In this document: in pieces, positions 40,904 through 64,000 of the stretch
Layout of the letters: the number at the start of each line of letters is the position of its first letter
How positions within the stretch are numbered: the stretch's first letter is position 1
Source: Candidatus Bartonella washoeensis Sb944nv
GTDB taxonomy: Bacteria; Pseudomonadota; Alphaproteobacteria; Rhizobiales; Rhizobiaceae
Length of the DNA stretch: 64,000 nt
Direction: 5' to 3'
NCBI RefSeq assembly: GCF_000278135.1
Contig: NZ_JH725024.1
Span: forward strand, 270,934-334,933
Notes under the pieces: model-generated
What the model was told of the DNA's origin: nothing
What the model saw: only the letters and a program-made list of their open reading frames with translations
The model's database searches: none
Made by a program: the position numbers and the translations under genes

Positions 40904-40930
40904 AAAAGGCAGCACAATGTGCTGCCTTTT
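40904..40930 (-). terminator. Terminator of the fourth autotransporter
   Basis: Perfect 12-pair hairpin, AAAAGGCAGCAC, three-base loop, GTGCTGCCTTTT, with the T-run continuing on the minus strand. It is 28 bases after the stop codon. Confidence 0.9.
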
Positions 40931-50987: not shown

Positions 50988-52458
50988 CTATTTTTCCAGA
51001 TCACTAAAGCGTGTAAAGTCGGATTGAAATGCAAGGGAGACGATTCCTGTGGGACCATGGCGTTGTTTTGCTATAATAACCTCAGCTTTACCCTTGGCTT
51101 GCTCCATCGCCTCTTGCCATTTGCTATACTCAGGAGTGCCTTCTTTGGGTTCTTCATTTTTGAGATAATATTCTTCACGATAAACGAACAGAACAATGTC
51201 GGCATCTTGCTCGATTGAACCAGACTCACGTAAATCGGAGAGTTGTGGACGTTTATCGGTTCGGTTTTCAACTTGACGCGAAAGTTGTGACAGAGCAATG
51301 ATGGGAATATTGAGTTCTTTTGCCAGTGCTTTTAATCCGGTGGTAATAGCTGTAATTTCTTGAACGCGATTTTCTAATGAACGCTTTGAACCGCTTGTCA
51401 TGAGTTGGATATAATCGATAATCAAGACATCTAGACCATGTTGTCGTTTAAGACGCCTTGCACGGGCAGCCAATTGTGCAAGGGATACACCACCCGTTTG
51501 ATCAATATAAAGAGGGATTTTTTGTAAGGAACGCATTGCGTAAATGATGTTGGTAAATTGCTTTTCTGAGATATTACCACGACGCATATCAGAAGAAGAA
51601 ACCTTTATTTGTTCTGAGATAATACGAGTTGCAAGCTGTTCAGATGACATTTCAAGTGAGAAGAAACCTACAATGCCCCCTTCATTGGCTTGGCTGTTAT
51701 CATGACGCTTGCAAGCATTAGCAATATTAAAAGCAATATTGGTCGCCAGAGAGGTTTTCCCCATCCCAGGGCGACCAGCTATGATAATCAAATCGGATAG
51801 CTGTAGCCCCCCATTTTTTCATCAAGGGTTTTGATATGGGTAGCGATCCCAGAAAGCTGTGAGGTACGCTTTTTTGCAGCGCTTGCCATGTTAAGTGCTT
51901 TTGCAATGGCTGTATCAAAGTTTTCAAATCCACCTCCATATTTCCCTTTTTCGGCGAGCTCAAATAACTGATTTTCAATCGTTTCAATTTGTTGGGAAGG
52001 TGTAAGTTCTAGAGGCGCATCAAAAGCTGTATTGGCAACTTCATTGCCAAGATTAATCAAAGACCGGCGGATAAAAAGATCATAAATAACACGTCCATAA
52101 TCTTCAGCGTTAATAATAGTGACTGCCTCTGTGGCTAAGCGAACAACATACTGGTATACAGTAATATCTCCAATTTTTTCTTCCATTTGGATATAGGGCT
52201 TAAGTGTAATTGGGTTTGCAAGATGACCCTTTTGAATAATTTGTAAGACAATCTCAAAGATCTTTTGATGTAGAGTTTCAAAAAAATGCTCTGCTTTGAG
52301 AAAGTCTGAAACACGATCGAATCATCATTATTAATCAGGATTGCTCCAAGTAATGCCTGTTCAGCTTCAATATTATGGGAAAGTTGACGAAAAGAAGCAG
52401 GCAAATCACCCCTTTGATTTTCTGTTTCCCAGCATTCTACGAAGTTGACTTTTTCCAT
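50988..52458 (-). pseudogene. Replicative DNA helicase DnaB, broken by two frameshifts
   Basis: Hexameric replicative helicase, here about 490 codons in three pieces. The N-terminal domain (SHNIEAEQALLGAILINND) runs to a frameshift at about 52320. The second piece begins in effect at FDRVSDFLKAEHFFETLHQK and ends at DEKMGG near 51812. There a run of six G (minus strand) looks one base short, and restoring it gives MGGLQLSDLIIIAGRPGMGK. The third piece has Walker A AGRPGMGKTS, IGFFSLEMS-type SLEMSSEQLATRI, DVLIIDYIQLM and the end SDFTRFSDLEK. Probably a phage-derived second dnaB, not the chromosomal copy. The second break could be a sequencing error in the homopolymer. Confidence 0.82.
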
Positions 52459-53327
52459 GGCTCTTTTCCCTTGTCTGGTGCTTCTAGAGTGATTTCTGTG
52501 GTGTATCCGCTTTGTTTCTCATAGCGATGGGTGACGCTTTGGGCTTTCCATGGTCCATCGATTTCACTGCGGAACCCTTGAAGAAGCAGCGGTTGATCCG
52601 CCATGATTTCGGGGCGCCCTTCAAGGGACAAAGAGCCACTGCCCACAGCACGACACAGCCGGTCTGATTCTGAGGCGGCAGCAGCCAGTGCCTCTTCCTT
52701 ACAAGTGTAGCAACAACGCAGACGGCGTACGGGACCGGTAAAACCTGTCTGATGTTTGACTTGCCATTGTTGCCCTTGTGAACGATCAAAATAACAGGCT
52801 TCAATGGTGCCATATTGCGTACGCGGCTCAAAAGTAAATTCCCAGCTCGAACAGTCATGCTTATGGATTGCTAATGCCGATAAGTTCTCTCCACTTAAAA
52901 ATAAAAACTTATTGTCTTTGATGAAAAAACGTGCCTGCATGCGCTCAGCAAGGCGCGTTAAAAAATCAACAGCCGATTGATCCGTACGAATCACATAAGG
53001 GAGAGTTTGTTGAGTGAACTGGGGGCTTATCTTTGCTTGATAGCCATGGCGTTTGGCTAAGGTTTCCACAATCTCGCCAACAGTTTTACCATCAAAATGT
53101 TCACTTGTTTGTTCTTTGAGTTCTTTACGCATCGAGGCGCTTTTGCCACAAAGGCGCAAAAGTTCATGCCCTAAAATGTGGTTATAGCCCGCCAAGCGGC
53201 GCAAATAATCATTCAATTCTCGAACATCTTTCGCACTCAGAAAAACACCTTCTACTTCATGTTTTAACAAGGCAGAGCGCAAAGCAACCAAGCAATCTCT
53301 CACCATATAAGGGTTCCGTTCCATCAT
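52437..53327 (-). CDS. Fusion of a phage early gene to the C-terminal part of tail protein D
   Basis: From about residue 66 on this is the C-terminal two thirds of a P2 GpD-like late control/tail protein: KTVGEIVETLAKRHGYQAKI, SAVDFLTRLAERMQARFFI, and VKHQTGFTGPVRRLRCCYTC to SLEGRPEIMADQPLLLQGFR and YTTEITLEAP. The first 65 residues (MVRDCLVALRSALLKHEVEG, NDYLRRLAGYNHILGHELLR) are unlike GpD and look like an early gene of a Mu-like phage. The N-terminal tube domain of GpD is missing. A large deletion joining early and late regions explains this. The start overlaps the upstream gene by four bases. It is probably not functional as a tail protein. Confidence 0.7.
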   Translation of the reverse strand: MMERNPYMVRDCLVALRSALLKHEVEGVFLSAKDVRELNDYLRRLAGYNHILGHELLRLCGKSASMRKELKEQTSEHFDGKTVGEIVETLAKRHGYQAKISPQFTQQTLPYVIRTDQSAVDFLTRLAERMQARFFIKDNKFLFLSGENLSALAIHKHDCSSWEFTFEPRTQYGTIEACYFDRSQGQQWQVKHQTGFTGPVRRLRCCYTCKEEALAAAASESDRLCRAVGSGSLSLEGRPEIMADQPLLLQGFRSEIDGPWKAQSVTHRYEKQSGYTTEITLEAPDKGKEPWKKSTS

Positions 53328-53593
53328 TTTCCGCCTCCAAAATCCATATGAATAACTGTTCCTGTCTCATCCCTCTTCGAATGAGAAACTTTGCAACGTG
53401 GCAAAGCTTCCACAGCTTGGCCCTCCAAAATCGCCTCTGCTTCGCTTAAGCGGTGAATACTCAATTCCAATTCAAGCGATAACGCTAAATCCACACAGAG
53501 TTTAAGCTGTTCTCCAATCTCAAAACCGCGTTGATAATCGTCATAAAGACCAACAAGCGTATTGGATAATTCTTTGTCGCATAAAGGGATCAT
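53324..53593 (-). CDS. Hypothetical protein of the Mu-like early region
   Basis: 89 residues, soluble, acidic middle (LALSLELELSIHRLSEAEAI), no recognisable motif. It starts at the MuB stop with a four-base overlap and ends overlapping the next gene, so it belongs to the same tight transcription unit. Many Mu-like phages have small unknown genes after B. Confidence 0.6.
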   Translation of the reverse strand: MIPLCDKELSNTLVGLYDDYQRGFEIGEQLKLCVDLALSLELELSIHRLSEAEAILEGQAVEALPRCKVSHSKRDETGTVIHMDFGGGK

Positions 53594-54621
53594 GCCAATT
53601 CCTCCACGTCACGGTTTTTCCATGCCGCTTTGACATGTTTCAGTGTTACCTCACATCCATCCCCAAGCGCTGCCATGCGTGCCAACATCATGGTTTTGTC
53701 AATTTGCCGCAAAGCACCAGCCTTTAAGCCAATCCCTGTCAGAAACTTTATCGCACCAACATCTTCAATCCCCCAATCATGGATACGGGCGGCAATATCT
53801 TCACTATAGGGTTTGCGGCGTTTCAGGTGCATCGCCAAACGGCTTTTAATTTGCGCATAAGAGGGACCATTTTGACGATGAACCAAACGCCCAGAGATCT
53901 CATCATTTCCAACCAAAGCTAACCCTGTGCCATTAATATCAACAAAATGGCGCAACTGATTAATTGCTTCATCCGTTAAATTTTGCGCCTCATCAACAAT
54001 CAACAGCGTGCCTGAACCCACCCGCTCTAATTTTTTACCAATCGCACGCGTTAAGCGGGTGGGATTATATTCCACCACTTCCAATTCTGCCGCCATATCA
54101 TTCAAAATACCATGAACACTGCGCGTATGCGGGCTTGCTGTCACCAAATAAACATGCGGGCGCGTTGCACGATAATGGCGGCAGGTTTCCGTCTTGCCAC
54201 TACCTGCATCAAGCGTAATCATCACCATATCACCAGTACTTTGCGCCAGTGTTAAAGTGTCAATGATCTCACTGGCAATACGATTCCTCTGAAAGGCTGG
54301 CTTTTCAGGGATCTTCTCCAAAAACCCCGCCGTTTCTTTTAAAACCTCAACCCATTGTTGAACCTTCGCATTCTGCTTACCCAATTGCCCCGCATAACTG
54401 CCCGCATACCATTGCGAAAACGTCCCATCCGGCATCCCTATGCGCCGCGCCACCTCTGCTTTCGACCAATCATTCATTTGCCCCAAAGCTCTGACCGCAT
54501 CCACAAGCTCATTCCATAAAGCAATGTCATCACTGTTGCGGTTTTGTGCTGTTCCACTGGGCTGGATTTTAGGTCGCGCCCAAGTATTTTTATCGACCGT
54601 TGCATTTATCGCGTTTTTCAT
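53590..54621 (-). CDS. Mu B-like transposition protein (AAA+ ATPase)
   Basis: ATP-dependent target-DNA-binding protein that captures target DNA and activates the transposase. The N-terminal region has a helix-turn-helix (WSKAEVARRIGMPDGTFSQWYAG), as in Mu B. Walker A is unusual, LDAGSGKTET, still with the GxGKT core. Walker B is GTLLIVDEAQNL. Sensor-like ALVGNDEISGRLVHR and a C-terminal helical domain follow. At 343 residues it is slightly longer than Mu B (312). No break: the best preserved gene of the element besides the regulators. GAGGGAG precedes the ATG, and a hairpin lies about 52 bases upstream. Confidence 0.85.
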   Translation of the reverse strand: MKNAINATVDKNTWARPKIQPSGTAQNRNSDDIALWNELVDAVRALGQMNDWSKAEVARRIGMPDGTFSQWYAGSYAGQLGKQNAKVQQWVEVLKETAGFLEKIPEKPAFQRNRIASEIIDTLTLAQSTGDMVMITLDAGSGKTETCRHYRATRPHVYLVTASPHTRSVHGILNDMAAELEVVEYNPTRLTRAIGKKLERVGSGTLLIVDEAQNLTDEAINQLRHFVDINGTGLALVGNDEISGRLVHRQNGPSYAQIKSRLAMHLKRRKPYSEDIAARIHDWGIEDVGAIKFLTGIGLKAGALRQIDKTMMLARMAALGDGCEVTLKHVKAAWKNRDVEELA

Positions 54622-54704: not shown

Positions 54705-54948
54705 TCACTCTAAAGCCGTACGCGATACTCAACCGGCTTCCTTACAAATCTCCCCCCTGCTCCTTTTCACTCAAAGGGGAAACTTAAATCACTTGATACT
54801 CCTCACCCAATGAGGCAGAGACGCATAAAACTGGATTGTATTGATTTGAAAATTGAAATGGATAAGACTTCTCCCCCCTTTCTTTGTTCATTCTTCAACC
54901 CCGCACATGGACCTCAACCAGTTCCCTTAAATCCCCCCTCTCCTTTTC

Positions 54949-56921
54949 CTATTGCTTAGGAAACTTTATCACTTCACGCCCCTCATCAGACGCTGAAAGT
55001 TTTCTCAAAGCTTTGTGCAAATGATGGCTAAATTCTTCCTCCCCCAAAGCCTCATCATCAGCTTGCAAAGCTAAATTGCCCACATTGTTTGGAACCAATC
55101 TCGTAACCTTTGGCTTTATCGCAGCCTTGGATGTTAACTTTTCATCCTTTCGTTCAACTCGGGTATAAACATCTGCCAATTGATCAGGCGCAAGCTTTGC
55201 TGCTAGCTGTTTTTCTGCTTTAACAGCCTTCACATACTCTTTACGCAAACGCCCATTGAGACGTGCCGCCTGCTGGTCTAAAAACCCACATCAGAAAGGC
55301 ATGGTGCCAAACAAATCAACCGATTATGCAAATCATAAACCCGCAAATCCTGATGCAAATGATCCGGATCAAAGCGTACAATCACCTTTTGCCCCGCATA
55401 CTCATTCAATGCCCGCGCCCAATAACGATTGCCATAAAAATGAATCTCGCCCGTCCCCTTTTGCGCACGCAACGCTTCAGATGTTAAAAGCCATAAAGCC
55501 CGTTGTGCCGCCGTTGCTTGCCGAATAATCGTCCCCTCGGCTTGCAAGCTTTCTGCAAAGATCTCATCAAACTACGCCCCGCACAATTCAGCGCCTTGCG
55601 CCCTGTTTGCGCATTGTGCGCACAAATTTGCGCACCAACATGGGCTTTAAACTCTTCAAATCCTATGGCGCTTGCCATAATCTTCAGGCTTGGCATCCGG
55701 CTTATTGCCCGTATATGCCCCCGCACAAAAAGGATGTTTCGAAATCGCTTCTGCTAAATCACGCCATGCCCGCTCAATCGGTTTAGACTGTCCGCTATAA
55801 GGTGTGGTCCATTGCAATTGCACTCCCAAGCTCGTCAAAAGCCCCTGCGGATCATCCGGCTTAATTTTAAAACGAAAGCGGTTTTGCACTCCCCCAGAAA
55901 TCCACTTGCTGGTAAAGGCACGCCCATTATCCAAAGTCATTCGCTCCGGTATTCCATAAGCCTCCACCATATCCCCAATCACCAAACGCACGATTTCCCA
56001 AGTCTCGGCATCAGACAAGCGCCATGATAAAATCTTGCCCGAATAAAGATCTTGAATAGCTATCAAATAAAGCCGCACAGGCTTCTCCGCCCAAGGAACG
56101 CTCACAAAAACATCAAGCTTATGCCCATCCATATTCACCGCTTGCAAAGCATGCAGGTTTGAGCAATCACGCCGTTGTGCCGGATAAAGCTTTTTTGCCT
56201 TTTCTTCTCCCTCACGCGCCAAAACCACAACCGCTTTGGAAACTTGCGCATTAAAACGACGCCGCAAAGCCCGCTCTGAAGGAATTGGCTCCCAACCCCG
56301 TTCTTGTGCAACCGCTAGCATCCGCCGATAACACGCCGAAAAAGCAGGGTGAGAGGGGCGCAAATAATCCGAACAAAAAACCTCCCATGCCCCCTCATGA
56401 CACGGCGCAAATTGCGAAACATTCTCCTCACCATAGGAAGGCGCTAAGGCTGCCAACCAATCAGGGCGCTCATATCCTTCAACCATCTGCCGCCAATTAA
56501 ACAGCGACATCCGGCTCACACCAAATTGCACCGCAGTGCTTGTTGCCGCATCATGCACGCCTAGACCGCCATGGATCAAATCATTCATAAAACAAAGTGC
56601 CTTCAAACGCTCTTCACAACGCCTTTTATGCGCCTTTGAAAGCCCCTCATAACGCACCCAAATGCTTGTCTTTTGCTCCCCTTGCGTTTGTTTTGCATCA
56701 ACACCCACTCCATATCGCACCAACAATGCCGCCTTTGCCCCCTCCGGCAATAACGAGATGTGATACTCCCAAACCGGCTTGGTTTTGCCTAATGTTTGGC
56801 GAAACAATTGTGTATTCAAACGCCATTTCTTAAGCGCAAGATTGTTGAGACCGATCTTTGTTTTCGGCAACCCTGGCAAAGCTGCCTCAGCCAATTCAGC
56901 AATACTAAACCATTCCTTCAT
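54949..56921 (-). pseudogene. Mu A-like transposase, broken by three frameshifts
   Basis: DDE transposase of the Mu A type, about 657 codons in all. Piece one (55656-56921, 421 codons) has the N-terminal Mu DNA-binding winged helix (MKEWFSIAELAEAALPGLPK) and the rve catalytic domain with Asp in VNMDGHKLDVF, Asp in TLDNGRAFTS and Glu in KPIERAWRDL. After a frameshift near 55685 the frame continues GFEEFKAHVGAQICAHNA, after another near 55574 it gives DEIFAESLQAEGTIIRQAT and the Mu-C beta barrel (HFYGNRYWARALNEYAG), and after a third near 55260 RLRKEYVKAVKAEKQ to the end. The full catalytic triad is kept, but the broken C-terminal half should abolish transposition. Confidence 0.87.
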
Positions 56922-57376
56922 GGCTGCCCCCTTTTAATGCGAACCGGCGTTGCGCGCATGGCTTTCAATCGCGCCGCAATCTCCCGCTGTTCCTGCTGAA
57001 GCCTGGCAATCTCTGCTAACCGCGCCTCATCCCCTTGCAACAACAACAATCCATCTTCACTCACCACCTCATCCCAGAGCCAAAATGCCTCTGTCGCCCG
57101 CACAAATGCCTTAAACCGCGGCAGGGAAATATCCACCTGCTTACTTTCCGCAACATAAGCATCCAAACTTGCCTTGCTTAAACACCCAATCCCTAAATAA
57201 TGCGCCATACGCTCCGCAATCACACTGCGCTCAACCCGGCATTCACGCAAAGCCTTAGCCATGGCACGCTTCATGCGTGAGCGAAACCGAACCAAATCAA
57301 TCTGCGCAACCGGTTCACGGCAGGGAAAAACCGGCTTTTGGAAAAAATCAAGCTGCCCGCAACCATGCCTCTTCAT
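56918..57376 (-). CDS. Hypothetical protein preceding Mu-like transposase
   Basis: About 152 residues from the ATG at 57376, which overlaps the end of the ParB-like gene. The frame is open further to 57451, inside that gene. Content is helical, with RMKRAMAKALRECRVERSVIAERMAHYLG suggesting a small helix-turn-helix or coiled region and a C-terminal ARLAEIARLQQEQREIAARL coiled coil. It overlaps the transposase start by four bases. Proteins in this place are common in Mu-like phages of Rhizobiales. Function unknown. Confidence 0.68.
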   Translation of the reverse strand: MKRHGCGQLDFFQKPVFPCREPVAQIDLVRFRSRMKRAMAKALRECRVERSVIAERMAHYLGIGCLSKASLDAYVAESKQVDISLPRFKAFVRATEAFWLWDEVVSEDGLLLLQGDEARLAEIARLQQEQREIAARLKAMRATPVRIKRGQP

Positions 57377-58301
57377 GACACCACCTCCACCGGTTGCTTT
57401 TCCAAATACGCACAAAACCGCTCCCGCGTTTGCACATCTGCCCTCTGCCACACCCCTAATAACTGCGCAAAAATCCGTTCCTGTTCATTGATTTGCGGTG
57501 GCGTATTAATCCCATTGACCAAATCAACAGCCCGCCGTAAATCCCCCTCAACCTGTTGCAAAGCAACCGCCACCCGCCGTTGCGCAACCGGCTCCATCTT
57601 CGCCAACTTTAACAATTGCGCTTGATTGTCCGCCAATGCCGTCCCACGCAAAACCGCCCGCAACTCCGGCTGTAAATGCTGGGCAATGCGGTTGAGGAGT
57701 TTCACTGACTCCTTAGACAAACCAATCCTATCGGCAACATGTGTGGCAAAGGGTAAACTTTACCCTTTGCCACTTTGTCCCCTTCACACGCGATTTCATT
57801 GTGATCTGAAGTTGCATTGCTGTCCCTTTGAGCAATAGGGTCAACTTGACCCAATTGCTCACAATGTGCATCACCACCGATCAAAGGGTAAAGTTTACCC
57901 TTTGATTTTCTGTCGCCACCAACCTTAATTTCCCCATACTTCTTTTCCCACAATTCGCGATAAGTCTGGACAAACAAGGCACGGTCAATCACTGACAATT
58001 CATTGCGAAACAGATTTTCCGCCACTTCTAAAAGCGCGGCATTATCCTTATCAGCTTGCACAACAACGGCATCAATATAGCTATAGCCCAAAAGCTCAGC
58101 AGCACGCAGCCGGTGAGCACCAGCTATAAGTGTGTAATTGCCCTCTTTAGCATTGGGAGTATGGCGCACGGTAATCGGATTCATCAATCCCTCCCGCGCC
58201 ATCGATTGCGCAAGTGCCTTGGCATGTTCATCATCCACAGGACGAATGCGCTCCGGCACAACAATCACATCAAGAGCAAGCTTTTGAAACTGTGCCATCA
58301 C
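57373..58301 (-). pseudogene. ParB/RepB nuclease-domain protein, frameshifted, with palindromic insert
   Basis: The first frame (57702-58301) has a ParB N-terminal domain: VVPERIRPVDDEHAKALAQS, then NYTLIAGAHRLRAAELLGY, then LSVIDRALFVQTYRELWEKK. After GGDRKSKGKLYPL it runs through an unusual stretch with two more copies of a [KL]G[KQ][VL][YD]P[LI] motif and ends out of frame (PHMLPIGLVCLRSQ). A shift of one base near 57730 restores HVADRIGLSKESVKLL, the expected helix-turn-helix, joining the downstream frame (57373-57720, KLLNRIAQHLQPELRAVLRG, LADNQAQLLKLAKMEPV) into one protein of about 308 residues. Such phage ParB-like proteins are thought to act in regulation or segregation. Their role in this element is unknown. 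Confidence 0.75.
57743..57906. repeat. Three long palindromes of one architecture in the ParB-like gene
   Basis: Palindrome 1 (57743-57773): arms GTGGCAAAGGGTAAA and its exact complement around a single C. Palindrome 2 (57830-57860): arms GAGCAATAGGGTCAA, one mismatch, centre C. Palindrome 3 (57880-57906): arms ATCAAAGGGTAAA, perfect, centre G. All share GGGT[A/C]AA at the centre side, while the outer bases differ but remain complementary. Centres are 87 and 48 bases apart, both multiples of three, so each encodes the same short peptide phase. Confidence 0.92.
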
Positions 58302-58696
58302 GCCGCCGCCTTTCTGATCTCTTTAAAAAACAAATCCATCGCACGCCCTGCCCATTTTTGGTAAGCTTTGGCAAAAACAGGTTCCATTAACCGCCGGTTA
58401 ATCACCTGCAGAGACAGAGAAATAGAAGTCCGCTGCCGTGCTTGTATGGCAACAATACGCCGCCGTGGCACCTCAAACTGATAATGCAAAATATGAATAA
58501 CAATCTGCCGTGCTAACGCCGCATCAAATAAGCCACGCGGAGGGTCAATAATATACCGGATTGGCAGATGCTTAAATCCACCACTCACGGCTTTTAAAGA
58601 ACAGGAAAGCATCACCTGTAAACGTTCAACTTCTGAATAAGGATTAACGATATCGCTTCTGACATCTGGGGTCCATAAATTACAAGCAGCAACCAT
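58298..58696 (-). CDS. Small phage protein with DnaA domain IV-like helix-turn-helix
   Basis: 132 residues. The second half (FDAALARQIVIHILHYQFEVPRRRIVAIQ, RQRTSISLSLQVINRRL) resembles the DnaA C-terminal DNA-binding domain, where an RQIAxYL-type helix precedes a xRDHTSVxHAxRxIE-type helix. The likeness is partial and from memory of the family. Start and stop overlap the neighbours by four bases, fitting one early operon. It could be a regulator or replication accessory. Confidence in a coding gene is good, in the fold moderate. Confidence 0.6.
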   Translation of the reverse strand: MVAACNLWTPDVRSDIVNPYSEVERLQVMLSCSLKAVSGGFKHLPIRYIIDPPRGLFDAALARQIVIHILHYQFEVPRRRIVAIQARQRTSISLSLQVINRRLMEPVFAKAYQKWAGRAMDLFFKEIRKAAA

Positions 58697-62239: not shown

Positions 62240-64000
62240 ATGTATAAAACATCCCTTTTGTCATGCACGGCTGCATCCGCTATCATCCTACTCAACATTC
62301 AATTGGCTGCACATGCTGAAACTCTCAAAGTTTCTGAGGAGAAAACAGTACCAGTATCAGATAAAACCTATGAAATGATTCACGCAAAAACCGGCGGTAA
62401 AATCACTGGCAAAGATTTAACAGTAATCGGAAATAAAGATATAAACTCAAATGAAAATAAAACCGCTTATGCTATAAAAACTGAAGGCACTGACAGTGCA
62501 ATTACATTACAGGGTAGCACAACCATTAAAGGAACTGATTCTGTCATTTCCTTAGGTGTTCAAGCAAAAGATGGTGCTACATTTCAAATGACTGGAGGAA
62601 CCATTACCGTTTCCGACACTGGTGCTCTCTTCTGGAACAATAATAACAACGAAAGCAAACTAAAAGATGTGACGATATCAAGCGGTAAAGACGAGGCACC
62701 ACTGAATTTTGGAGTAATAGCACACCAAAACGGTACAGTCACTTTAGAAAACATAAAAGTGACACAAGCAGACAATGCCGTAATTGCAAATCATAATTCC
62801 AAAATAACAATTTCTGGAGGATCATTTGAGGCAAAAAATACAACAATAACTGCTCTAAACGGTAGCAGCATTACTTTAACCGACAATGCACAAATTACAT
62901 CATCTGATGATGCTGGGCTCACAGCAAAAACACAATCCAACATCACAATAACCGGAGGAACTATAACAGGGAAAGACACAGCACTGATTACAACAAGAGG
63001 CGGACATATTAAGGTCACAGGTGGTACTCTAAAAACAAAGAGGACTAAAACAGATGCACCAGCTGAAGGCTCTCGCTATATCGATGGTTTTGGAGCATTT
63101 TCTAAGAGCTCTAACAGTATGATTGAGTTGGGAAATACCACGATTAGTGATACTAAAATCGGTCTTGATGCAAAAGATAGTGGCGCAATCAATATAACTG
63201 GGGGAAGCATTAAAGCTTCTGCAGCTGGTGCTGTCTTTGAAAACAGTAAGAGCGACAAAAACAAGCTGGAAAATGTAACTATATCAAGTGATAAAAATGA
63301 TACGCTACTAAATTTGGGAGTAGAAGCAGACAATAGTAGCGTCACTTTAAAAGATGTAACCGTCTCTGAAGCAACCAACGCCATAGCTGCATATGATAAT
63401 TCTAAAATAACGATATCAGGAGGATCATTTTCTGGAAACGATATAGGAGTACATGCACAAGAAGGCAGCTTTATTACTTTAACCGACAATGCTCAAATTA
63501 TATCATCGAGTGGTTATGCCCTCCATGCAAACGGTTTAGATTCCGCCATCACAATGACAACAGGAAACATAACGGGGAAAGAGGCAGCATTAGCTGTTGA
63601 AAACGGAGGACATATTGATCTGAGAAATGTTTCTGTAACAGCAGGAATCAACGGTTTGCAGTTGTTAGGTCTCTTTGATAGCAAACTCGATGAATCAAAT
63701 GATCCTCAAAAACATCAAAACAATGAGATCAATTTAACCAATGCAGATATTCACGTTGAAAATGGAACAGGAATTTTCGTTGGAGCTTTTACTAACGATA
63801 ACATTGAAGATATTCAAGATTTGTCAATTGGTACAGTCAATCTTACAAATTCAGAAATCCATGCCGATGTTTTATTAGGAGATGGTGTTTTCGAAAATCC
63901 AAAATCTTGGGGATCCGACAATTATTGGAACAAGAAATATTGGAACAAGAAAGAGGTTAAAGCAATCTCCAACGGCACCTTCACATTAAACGCAAATCAT
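62240..64000 (+). CDS. Type V autotransporter 5, N-terminal part (cut by window edge)
   Basis: 587 codons open to the window end. Start ATG 62240 with AAGGAGA upstream. Signal peptide MYKTSLLSCTAASAIILLNI ends in AAHAET (cleavage after AHA). The passenger is a regular beta-helix of short repeats, e.g. DSAITLQGSTTIKGTDSVI, QMTGGTITVSDTGALF, KITISGGSFEAKNTTITAL and SITLTDNAQITSSDDAGL, with longer units repeated near 62580-62900 and 63180-63500. Leader and passenger differ from the four autotransporters at 30.8-46.8 kb, so it belongs to another subfamily. The barrel is beyond the window. Probably an adhesin, by family. Confidence 0.85.
   Translation, partial: MYKTSLLSCTAASAIILLNIQLAAHAETLKVSEEKTVPVSDKTYEMIHAKTGGKITGKDLTVIGNKDINSNENKTAYAIKTEGTDSAITLQGSTTIKGTDSVISLGVQAKDGATFQMTGGTITVSDTGALFWNNNNNESKLKDVTISSGKDEAPLNFGVIAHQNGTVTLENIKVTQADNAVIANHNSKITISGGSFEAKNTTITALNGSSITLTDNAQITSSDDAGLTAKTQSNITITGGTITGKDTALITTRGGHIKVTGGTLKTKRTKTDAPAEGSRYIDGFGAFSKSSNSMIELGNTTISDTKIGLDAKDSGAINITGGSIKASAAGAVFENSKSDKNKLENVTISSDKNDTLLNLGVEADNSSVTLKDVTVSEATNAIAAYDNSKITISGGSFSGNDIGVHAQEGSFITLTDNAQIISSSGYALHANGLDSAITMTTGNITGKEAALAVENGGHIDLRNVSVTAGINGLQLLGLFDSKLDESNDPQKHQNNEINLTNADIHVENGTGIFVGAFTNDNIEDIQDLSIGTVNLTNSEIHADVLLGDGVFENPKSWGSDNYWNKKYWNKKEVKAISNGTFTLNANH

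Follow-up and report, generated by a model that had tools for sequence, protein, structure and literature searches.

The window analysed here, a 64,000-nucleotide stretch of Candidatus Bartonella washoeensis Sb944nv DNA, carries a ParB-like gene in two pieces on its minus strand. The N-terminal half (57702..58301) contains a ParB_N domain (Pfam PF02195, E = 1.4e-12) and runs into a linker with palindromes, and the C-terminal helix-turn-helix half (57373..57729, in the -1 frame) matches the ParB-like family PHROG 3264 at profile positions 214-333 of 337. The two halves are joined in most relatives, and intact Bartonella copies are 284-349 residues long. The window ORF 57702-58301 ends at a TAG owing to a frameshift. 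Alignment with six relatives places the junction of a 46-bp loss at 57743..57750, between two TTTGCCA right arms that belong to neighbouring palindromes, and it is this loss that shifts the frame. In the window the linker measures 188 nt, and the other Bartonella linkers printed are multiples of 3. The initial annotation had described the palindromic stretch as inserted in frame; this has to be given up, since GGDRKSKGKLYPL and HVADRIGL lie in different frames of the window, with the TAG stop and the 46-bp loss. Nor do its 45 codons look like a recent insertion, since the Bartonella copies compared all hold a linker there, of varying length and content. A programmed -1 frameshift at the heptamer CCCTTTG, which is present in the window parB sequence, would join the halves and was considered; the 46-bp loss is the simpler account, and the window copy is probably a pseudogene that no longer makes a whole protein. 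Several other Bartonella copies are also broken (e.g. loci L020, L032, L038, L074, and L076). A second, decayed C-terminal remnant of parB, with two degenerate sites, lies on contig 2 of the same genome (L090:1195-1560).

The gene lies in a defective Mu-like prophage. A MuA-like transposase frame (55656..56921, minus strand; Pfam DDE_2 and HTH_Tnp_Mu) is cut short; in the region 54900-56921 it stops early, at 421 aa, with its continuation in other frames interrupted by stops. Since the MuA-like frame ends early and is broken, the defect of the prophage extends beyond the parB frameshift. A MuB-like target-capture gene follows (53590..54621, minus strand; Pfam Phage-MuB_C and AAA_22), and a putative late gene, called gpD/VgrG-like here, is found at 52437..53327 (minus strand) by a partial, below-cutoff match to NF033848. 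This late gene is followed by arrays of sites in relatives and by none in the window. An ORF adjoining it (52135-52458) resembles, by eye, an N-terminal fragment of DnaB helicase (putative). Upstream of parB lies a small conserved gene (58298-58696, PHROG 9734), and short minus-strand ORFs at 62584-63489 repeat PPEIVILEL/PPVIVML-like text and are possibly the antisense of a repeat protein.

Three inverted repeats had been reported in the ParB-like gene, and all three are borne out as putative parS-like sites. Site 1 (57743..57773) is a perfect palindrome with arms of 15+1+15 and the half-site CAAAGGGTAAA. Site 2, previously placed at 57830-57860, spans 57829..57861 (16+1+16) with one mismatch, and site 3 (57880..57906, 13+1+13) is perfect. 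The cores of site 1 and of site 3 (GGGTAAA) are the one assigned below to the helix type of the window protein, whereas the core of site 2 (GGGTCAA) is not. Three matches to the 21-letter motif form were found in the window at up to three mismatches, against 0.07 expected, and 0/100 shuffles reached three. A site scan of the whole window returned the three parB sites only and no array. A perfect 27-bp palindrome of another kind (AAAAGGCAGCACAATGTGCTGCCTTTT, 40904-40930) is unlike the ParB sites and is perhaps a terminator. The turn and recognition helix of the ParB-like protein (GLSKESVKLLN) are encoded at 57691..57723 on the minus strand, as read from the translation and from the modelled helix of an intact relative; the residues that covary with the palindromes are Glu (column 18), Lys (column 21), and Leu (column 22) in the window.

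The protein belongs to the ParB family: ParB_N is found in the window ORF, TIGR00180 scores above its cut-off in an intact relative, and a PDB sequence search ranks Noc, ParB, and KorB highest. In the predicted model of an intact Bartonella protein (L314; mean pLDDT 79.6), the N domain is ordered, residues 128-154 and 156-161 of the linker have pLDDT below 50, and a helix at residues 174-186 holds the covarying residues 175, 178, and 179. The model has the ParB/Noc/KorB fold, with the helix-turn-helix after the N domain, and it aligns with ParB (6t1f; Z 11.6, rmsd 5.5, 179 residues), Noc (7nfu; Z 11.4, rmsd 5.2, 188 residues), and KorB (8qa9; Z 10.8, rmsd 5.1, 183 residues). The top row of the PDB comparison is sulfiredoxin (Z 12.7, rmsd 3.1, 88 residues), which covers the N domain only, and the top Foldseek match is 7nfu (E = 1.2e-9). 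G60 and R63 of GAHR and N95 and L96 of ENLFR are invariant in 12/12 aligned proteins, and R98 is absent in two phages; we take G60, R63, N95, L96, and R98 to be residues of the CTP-binding motif. The alignment used for the model leaves out L273, which has a stop codon, L255, L291, and L295.

Linker palindromes in relatives and phages

A first scan of viral contigs with the window protein found no relative. Searches with a 12-protein alignment matched 57/397 genomes of the order and 16/385 of the class, the genomes being sampled rather than exhausted. In named alphaproteobacterial Mu-like phages, parB lies between the regulator (ner) and transposase genes, and palindromes unrelated to those of Bartonella occupy the same linker between ParB_N and the helix-turn-helix. 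The linker palindrome outranks every other repeat of the gene in POA1180, StopSmel, RcapMu, Aussie, RR1-B, and PeaS; in ThpS it is slightly weaker than another repeat of the gene, and RcWaterboi has an imperfect linker repeat only. Two Microcystis phages were included, one with a weak linker repeat that obeys the helix/base rule described below (L140) and one with none (L139). When five phage genomes were scanned, the linker site was the sole one within two mismatches in four; the exception, POA1180, has four sites elsewhere, one with one mismatch and three with two.

The position of the palindrome is a regular feature of these genes. Of the 99 genes with landmarks in the order/class set, 73 have their strongest inverted repeat in the linker (the landmarks are absent in L185 and L224, both outside this first-set count). 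Non-redundantly, with three duplicates and four Bartonella copies taken out and the divergent Bartonella copy L037 kept, the figure is 69/92, although the linker makes up 15% of the gene. The same holds for 61/71 viral loci and 20/24 loci from a search of the phylum. Weak linker repeats (score below 8) occur in 26 of the 96 non-redundant first-set genes; at the listed repeat, 12 of these obey the helix/base rule and 14 do not, and three of the 14 (L182-L184) resemble chromosomal-type ParBs without a linker. A MuA/MuB-like match was found in the fetched flank of 79/80 viral loci, 32/47 longer order/class loci, and 6/20 longer phylum loci, so that the description "Mu-like" is established for nearly all viral loci and not for every gene examined.

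Randomisation of synonymous codons in the linker reached P ≤ 0.05 in 63/91 genes, and in 28/91 genes 0/200 randomised linkers matched the natural repeat (L174, with ambiguous bases, is outside this null). Selection therefore acts on the DNA and not just on the encoded peptide, and the suggestion of the initial annotation that the symmetry itself is selected gains support. The outer arms that differ yet stay complementary were likewise seen, and the core letters also change in pairs across relatives. The innermost pair is symmetric in 42/67 first-set sites and 43/51 viral-set sites.

Covariation of helix residues with palindrome bases

To compare sites with proteins, half-sites were aligned outward from the centre and set against the helix that follows them. 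The code was derived from 46 representatives, which are 60% N-domain identity clusters of 67 genes with a linker score of at least 8. Three helix columns covary with three bases. At column 21, Lys or Arg goes with G at base -6 in 13/13 representatives, Gln or Glu with C in 21/23, and Trp, Phe, or Tyr with T in 7/7. At column 22, Arg goes with C at base -3 in 27/31 and other residues with A in 15/15, and Arg at column 18 goes with G at base -5 in 35/35. When 253-255 protein columns were scanned for each base, columns 21, 22, and 18 rank first, with z values of 19.2, 16.0, and 11.7, against 5.2, 5.6, and 6.8 for the next best columns. The covariation controls are the identity clusters and shuffles, with no tree.

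The rule was fixed before the viral loci were fetched. Of 390 related viral stretches in one scan, 80 loci were examined, and 71 remained once nine duplicates were removed. Among the 51 viral loci with a score of at least 8, the predicted base was found in 51/51 cases at -3, 44/46 at -6, and 25/25 at -5; the two failures are L265 and L270. Since the viral set holds near-copies of first-set genes (L229, L231, L282, L296, and others), the 46 viral loci below 80% identity to the first set were counted separately, and 107/109 bases were predicted, compared with a mean of 63.7 and a maximum of 79 in 5000 shuffles. When weaker sites are added (score at least 5, 64 loci), 54/58, 61/64, and 30/32 of the predictions hold. 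In a third set from the phylum search, with 19/24 loci from other classes, the predictions hold in 18/18 cases at -6, 17/18 at -3, and 17/17 at -5; this set was kept redundant, its L365 is the first-set gene L214, and, unlike the 46 viral loci, it carries no identity limit relative to the other sets. Statistically, the palindrome bases are specified by the ParB recognition helix. Because three helix residues predict site bases in further data sets, the protein encoded after a palindrome very probably reads that palindrome, as predicted from the sequences.

In Caulobacter ParB, G170, K171, S172, R173, and N178 contact parS, according to the relevant passage of PMC7383237. If the proteins are aligned by the G-x-S turn, columns 18, 21, and 22 would correspond to Caulobacter ParB residues 174, 177, and 178. 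The known R173-G1 contact would lead one to expect covariation of column 17 with base -7; it is weak (z 3.8, fifth among columns).

Specificity types and site arrays in Bartonella

Of 71 genomes of the genus searched, 34 gave matches at E ≤ 1e-8, and some of these matches are weak chromosomal-type ParBs or fragments. The Bartonella linkers between the conserved halves measure 90-312 nt and mostly hold 1-5 sites (L038 has none). Their outer arms are of few kinds (ATCAAAG, TGGCAAAG, and GAGCAATT), and their cores vary symmetrically among GGGTAAA, GGGTCAA, GGGACAA, GGTGCAA, GGATCAA, CGGTCAA, and GTGCAAA. When the proteins are typed by the residues at columns 18, 21, and 22, the type EKL of the window goes with GGGTAAA in 9/9 genes, the window counted, DKR with GGTGCAA in 10/11, KRR/KKR with GGGACAA in 9/9, ERR with CGGTCAA in 3/3, VKR with GGATCAA in 2/2, and RHY with GTGCAAA in 2/2. 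These counts leave out L038, which has no site, L037, which is in the first set instead, and five duplicates; the truncated copies L028, L078, L079, L080, and L093, the fragments L092, L094, and L095, and further unfetched fragments are also outside them. The core of its own type is carried by 35/37 Bartonella genes (35/36 typed), the exceptions being L066 and L076. As this mapping is post hoc and was made on the same data, its sole control is a permutation in which the mapping was re-optimised, which gave a mean of 22.8 and a maximum of 30 (3000 permutations) against the 35/37 observed. Cognate sites account for 49/112 sites in 36 Bartonella linkers; the other 63/112 fit other types and are not explained by simple self-recognition. 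There was no sign of an incompatibility-type exclusion of the same ParB type within one genome: 2 of 15 prophage pairs were of the same type, and the shuffled mean was 2.98.

Sites are also found in groups of 2-9, mostly of different types and often 34-39 bp apart, after a gpD/VgrG-like late gene. The array of L082 (1405-1610) reads EKL, DKR, VKR, EKL, RHY, and ERR in order, and that of L067 (4036-4473) contains all seven core types. Further arrays of mostly different specificities lie directly after the late gene at L085:1207-1460 and L133:1480-1820. The late gene or a remnant of it adjoins 12/13 array loci (L067, L082-L086, and L128-L134); beside the array of L084, no late-gene match was found. 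The arrays are largely without an open frame, and the first sites of L067 and L086 lie in short frames (122 and 84 aa) that overlap the end of the late gene. As a control, 11 kb was shuffled twenty times, which yielded a single match in total.

Interpretation and rival explanations

With high confidence, we interpret the palindromes as parS-like sites that would be bound by the ParB-like protein encoded in the same gene. That the sites serve the ParB-like protein itself had been one of two proposals in the initial annotation, and it is strongly supported by the position of the palindromes, the synonymous null, and the helix/base code in the further sets. Each palindrome would consist of two half-sites in inverted orientation, with two helix-turn-helix copies to read them, and the codons of the reading helix would lie a few dozen to about 300 bases downstream of the sites. 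Since site and reading helix neighbour each other in one gene, they could form a specificity cassette that is passed on and exchanged as a unit. The linker may be able to hold DNA sites because the region it encodes is predicted to be disordered. By analogy with ParB, Noc, and KorB, we infer that a ParB-family clamp would load at the embedded site and spread in a CTP-dependent manner.

The other proposal was a small palindromic element, mobile and multiplying within genes. Rickettsia palindromic elements are likewise palindromic DNA within coding sequences; they are longer and spread over unrelated genes. The presence of copies in several positions, including after the late gene, and mosaic 78-nt tandem modules would suit such an element, but one exact pattern occurs in the 71 genomes at 39 places, which a tally made by hand assigns to 32 parB genes or fragments and 7 arrays, all but L084 beside the late gene or a remnant. 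The same element in many unrelated genes, as expected of a Rickettsia-like one, was thus not encountered: the sites keep to a single gene family and a single type of array location. Since the same linker holds unrelated palindromes in other phages and the core letters follow the adjacent helix, we consider the mobile element very unlikely. Template switching at quasi-palindromes could keep the symmetry without selection, and the perfect arms, a swapped central C/G base, and an arm deletion fit hairpin-related mutation. Such mutation may help to keep the palindromes symmetric; as a full explanation it seems extremely unlikely, since it accounts neither for helix residues that predict bases nor for a palindrome position that stays constant from phage to phage.

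A hairpin in mRNA or single-stranded DNA, selected for pausing at the domain border or as a structure signal in place of a duplex site, would agree with the long, near-perfect symmetry of diverged sequences and with the location at a domain border. However, the symmetry extends up to the innermost pair (see the counts above), which is needless for a loop, and individual bases are predicted by protein residues, leaving this reading improbable in the extreme. A conserved linker peptide with the palindrome as its by-product would have in its favour that most Bartonella sites encode variants of [KL]G[KQ][VL][YDV]P[LI] in one codon phase. We rejected such a peptide constraint, whose probability appears very small: the synonymous null argues against it, GTGCAAA-type sites lie in another codon phase, the linker is predicted to be disordered, and other phages have unrelated peptides.

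The parS-like reading places the gene close to the ParB-parS and Noc-NBS systems, with which it shares ParB_N, the invariant G60, R63, N95, and L96, the helix-turn-helix, and a palindromic site. The linkers of L201 and L207 read GTTTCA-CGA-TGAAAC, which is the consensus parS TGTTTCACGTGAAACA with one added central base, and the covarying positions lie in the recognition helix known to read parS, in terms of the parS passages of PMC7383237. In contrast to the CAC-GTG of parS given there, the half-sites are mostly spaced CA-NNN-TG (PMC7383237). Unlike ParB-parS systems, the phage genes have the site within the interdomain linker codons of the same gene. Among the gene names annotated in five phage records, ParA does not occur, and on this ground plain partition seems unlikely. 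A parS site inside parB coding DNA is known from Bacillus subtilis (parS-359), in a passage that, unlike the phage family described here, is silent on helix coevolution and on a family-wide feature (PMC4442127). The protein also resembles KorB of RK2, a ParB-family repressor whose structure 8qa9 the model matches; operator placement is outside this comparison. Phage ParBs are suggested, in passages of PMC5488378 and PMC6536676, to act in integration or to direct the modification of DNA while it is packaged. Passages on other phages make no mention of ParB, and none of the passages names a target site; the portions of the open-licence literature covered yielded no account of parS sites embedded in the parB linkers of Mu-like phages.

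Since parB sits between the ner and transposase genes, autoregulation, a transcription road-block, and spreading over the early region are likely uses of the embedded sites, and the protein may regulate or mark the early transposition region. If the parS-like reading is right, the targets of many uncharacterised phage ParBs, with 390 related viral stretches in one scan alone, could be read from their own genes, and these would lend themselves naturally to training a protein-DNA recognition code. Proteins annotated as "partition protein" or "ParB-like nuclease" would acquire a specific DNA target and, next to the transposition genes, a role open to testing.

Protection from transposition would be a guess by analogy with MuB in the genome immunity of Mu, where coating by MuB was suggested to spare Mu from being a transposition target (PMC2837660). 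Tentatively, and with doubt, the cassette in Mu-like phages and the Bartonella panels of sites for rival ParBs could together be seen as a phage-against-phage device. Rival ParB proteins would load on, or be titrated by, DNA with panel sites; for example, a co-resident phage would see such DNA as marked "self" and refrain from transposing into it. The multi-type arrays would make the competition of co-resident Mu-like phages testable. The Bartonella non-cognate sites and arrays recall the "stolen" parS with which SGI1 recruits the ParB of IncC plasmids, as presented in the relevant part of PMC10954446; SGI1 addresses one helper family, whereas the Bartonella arrays hold up to seven core types.
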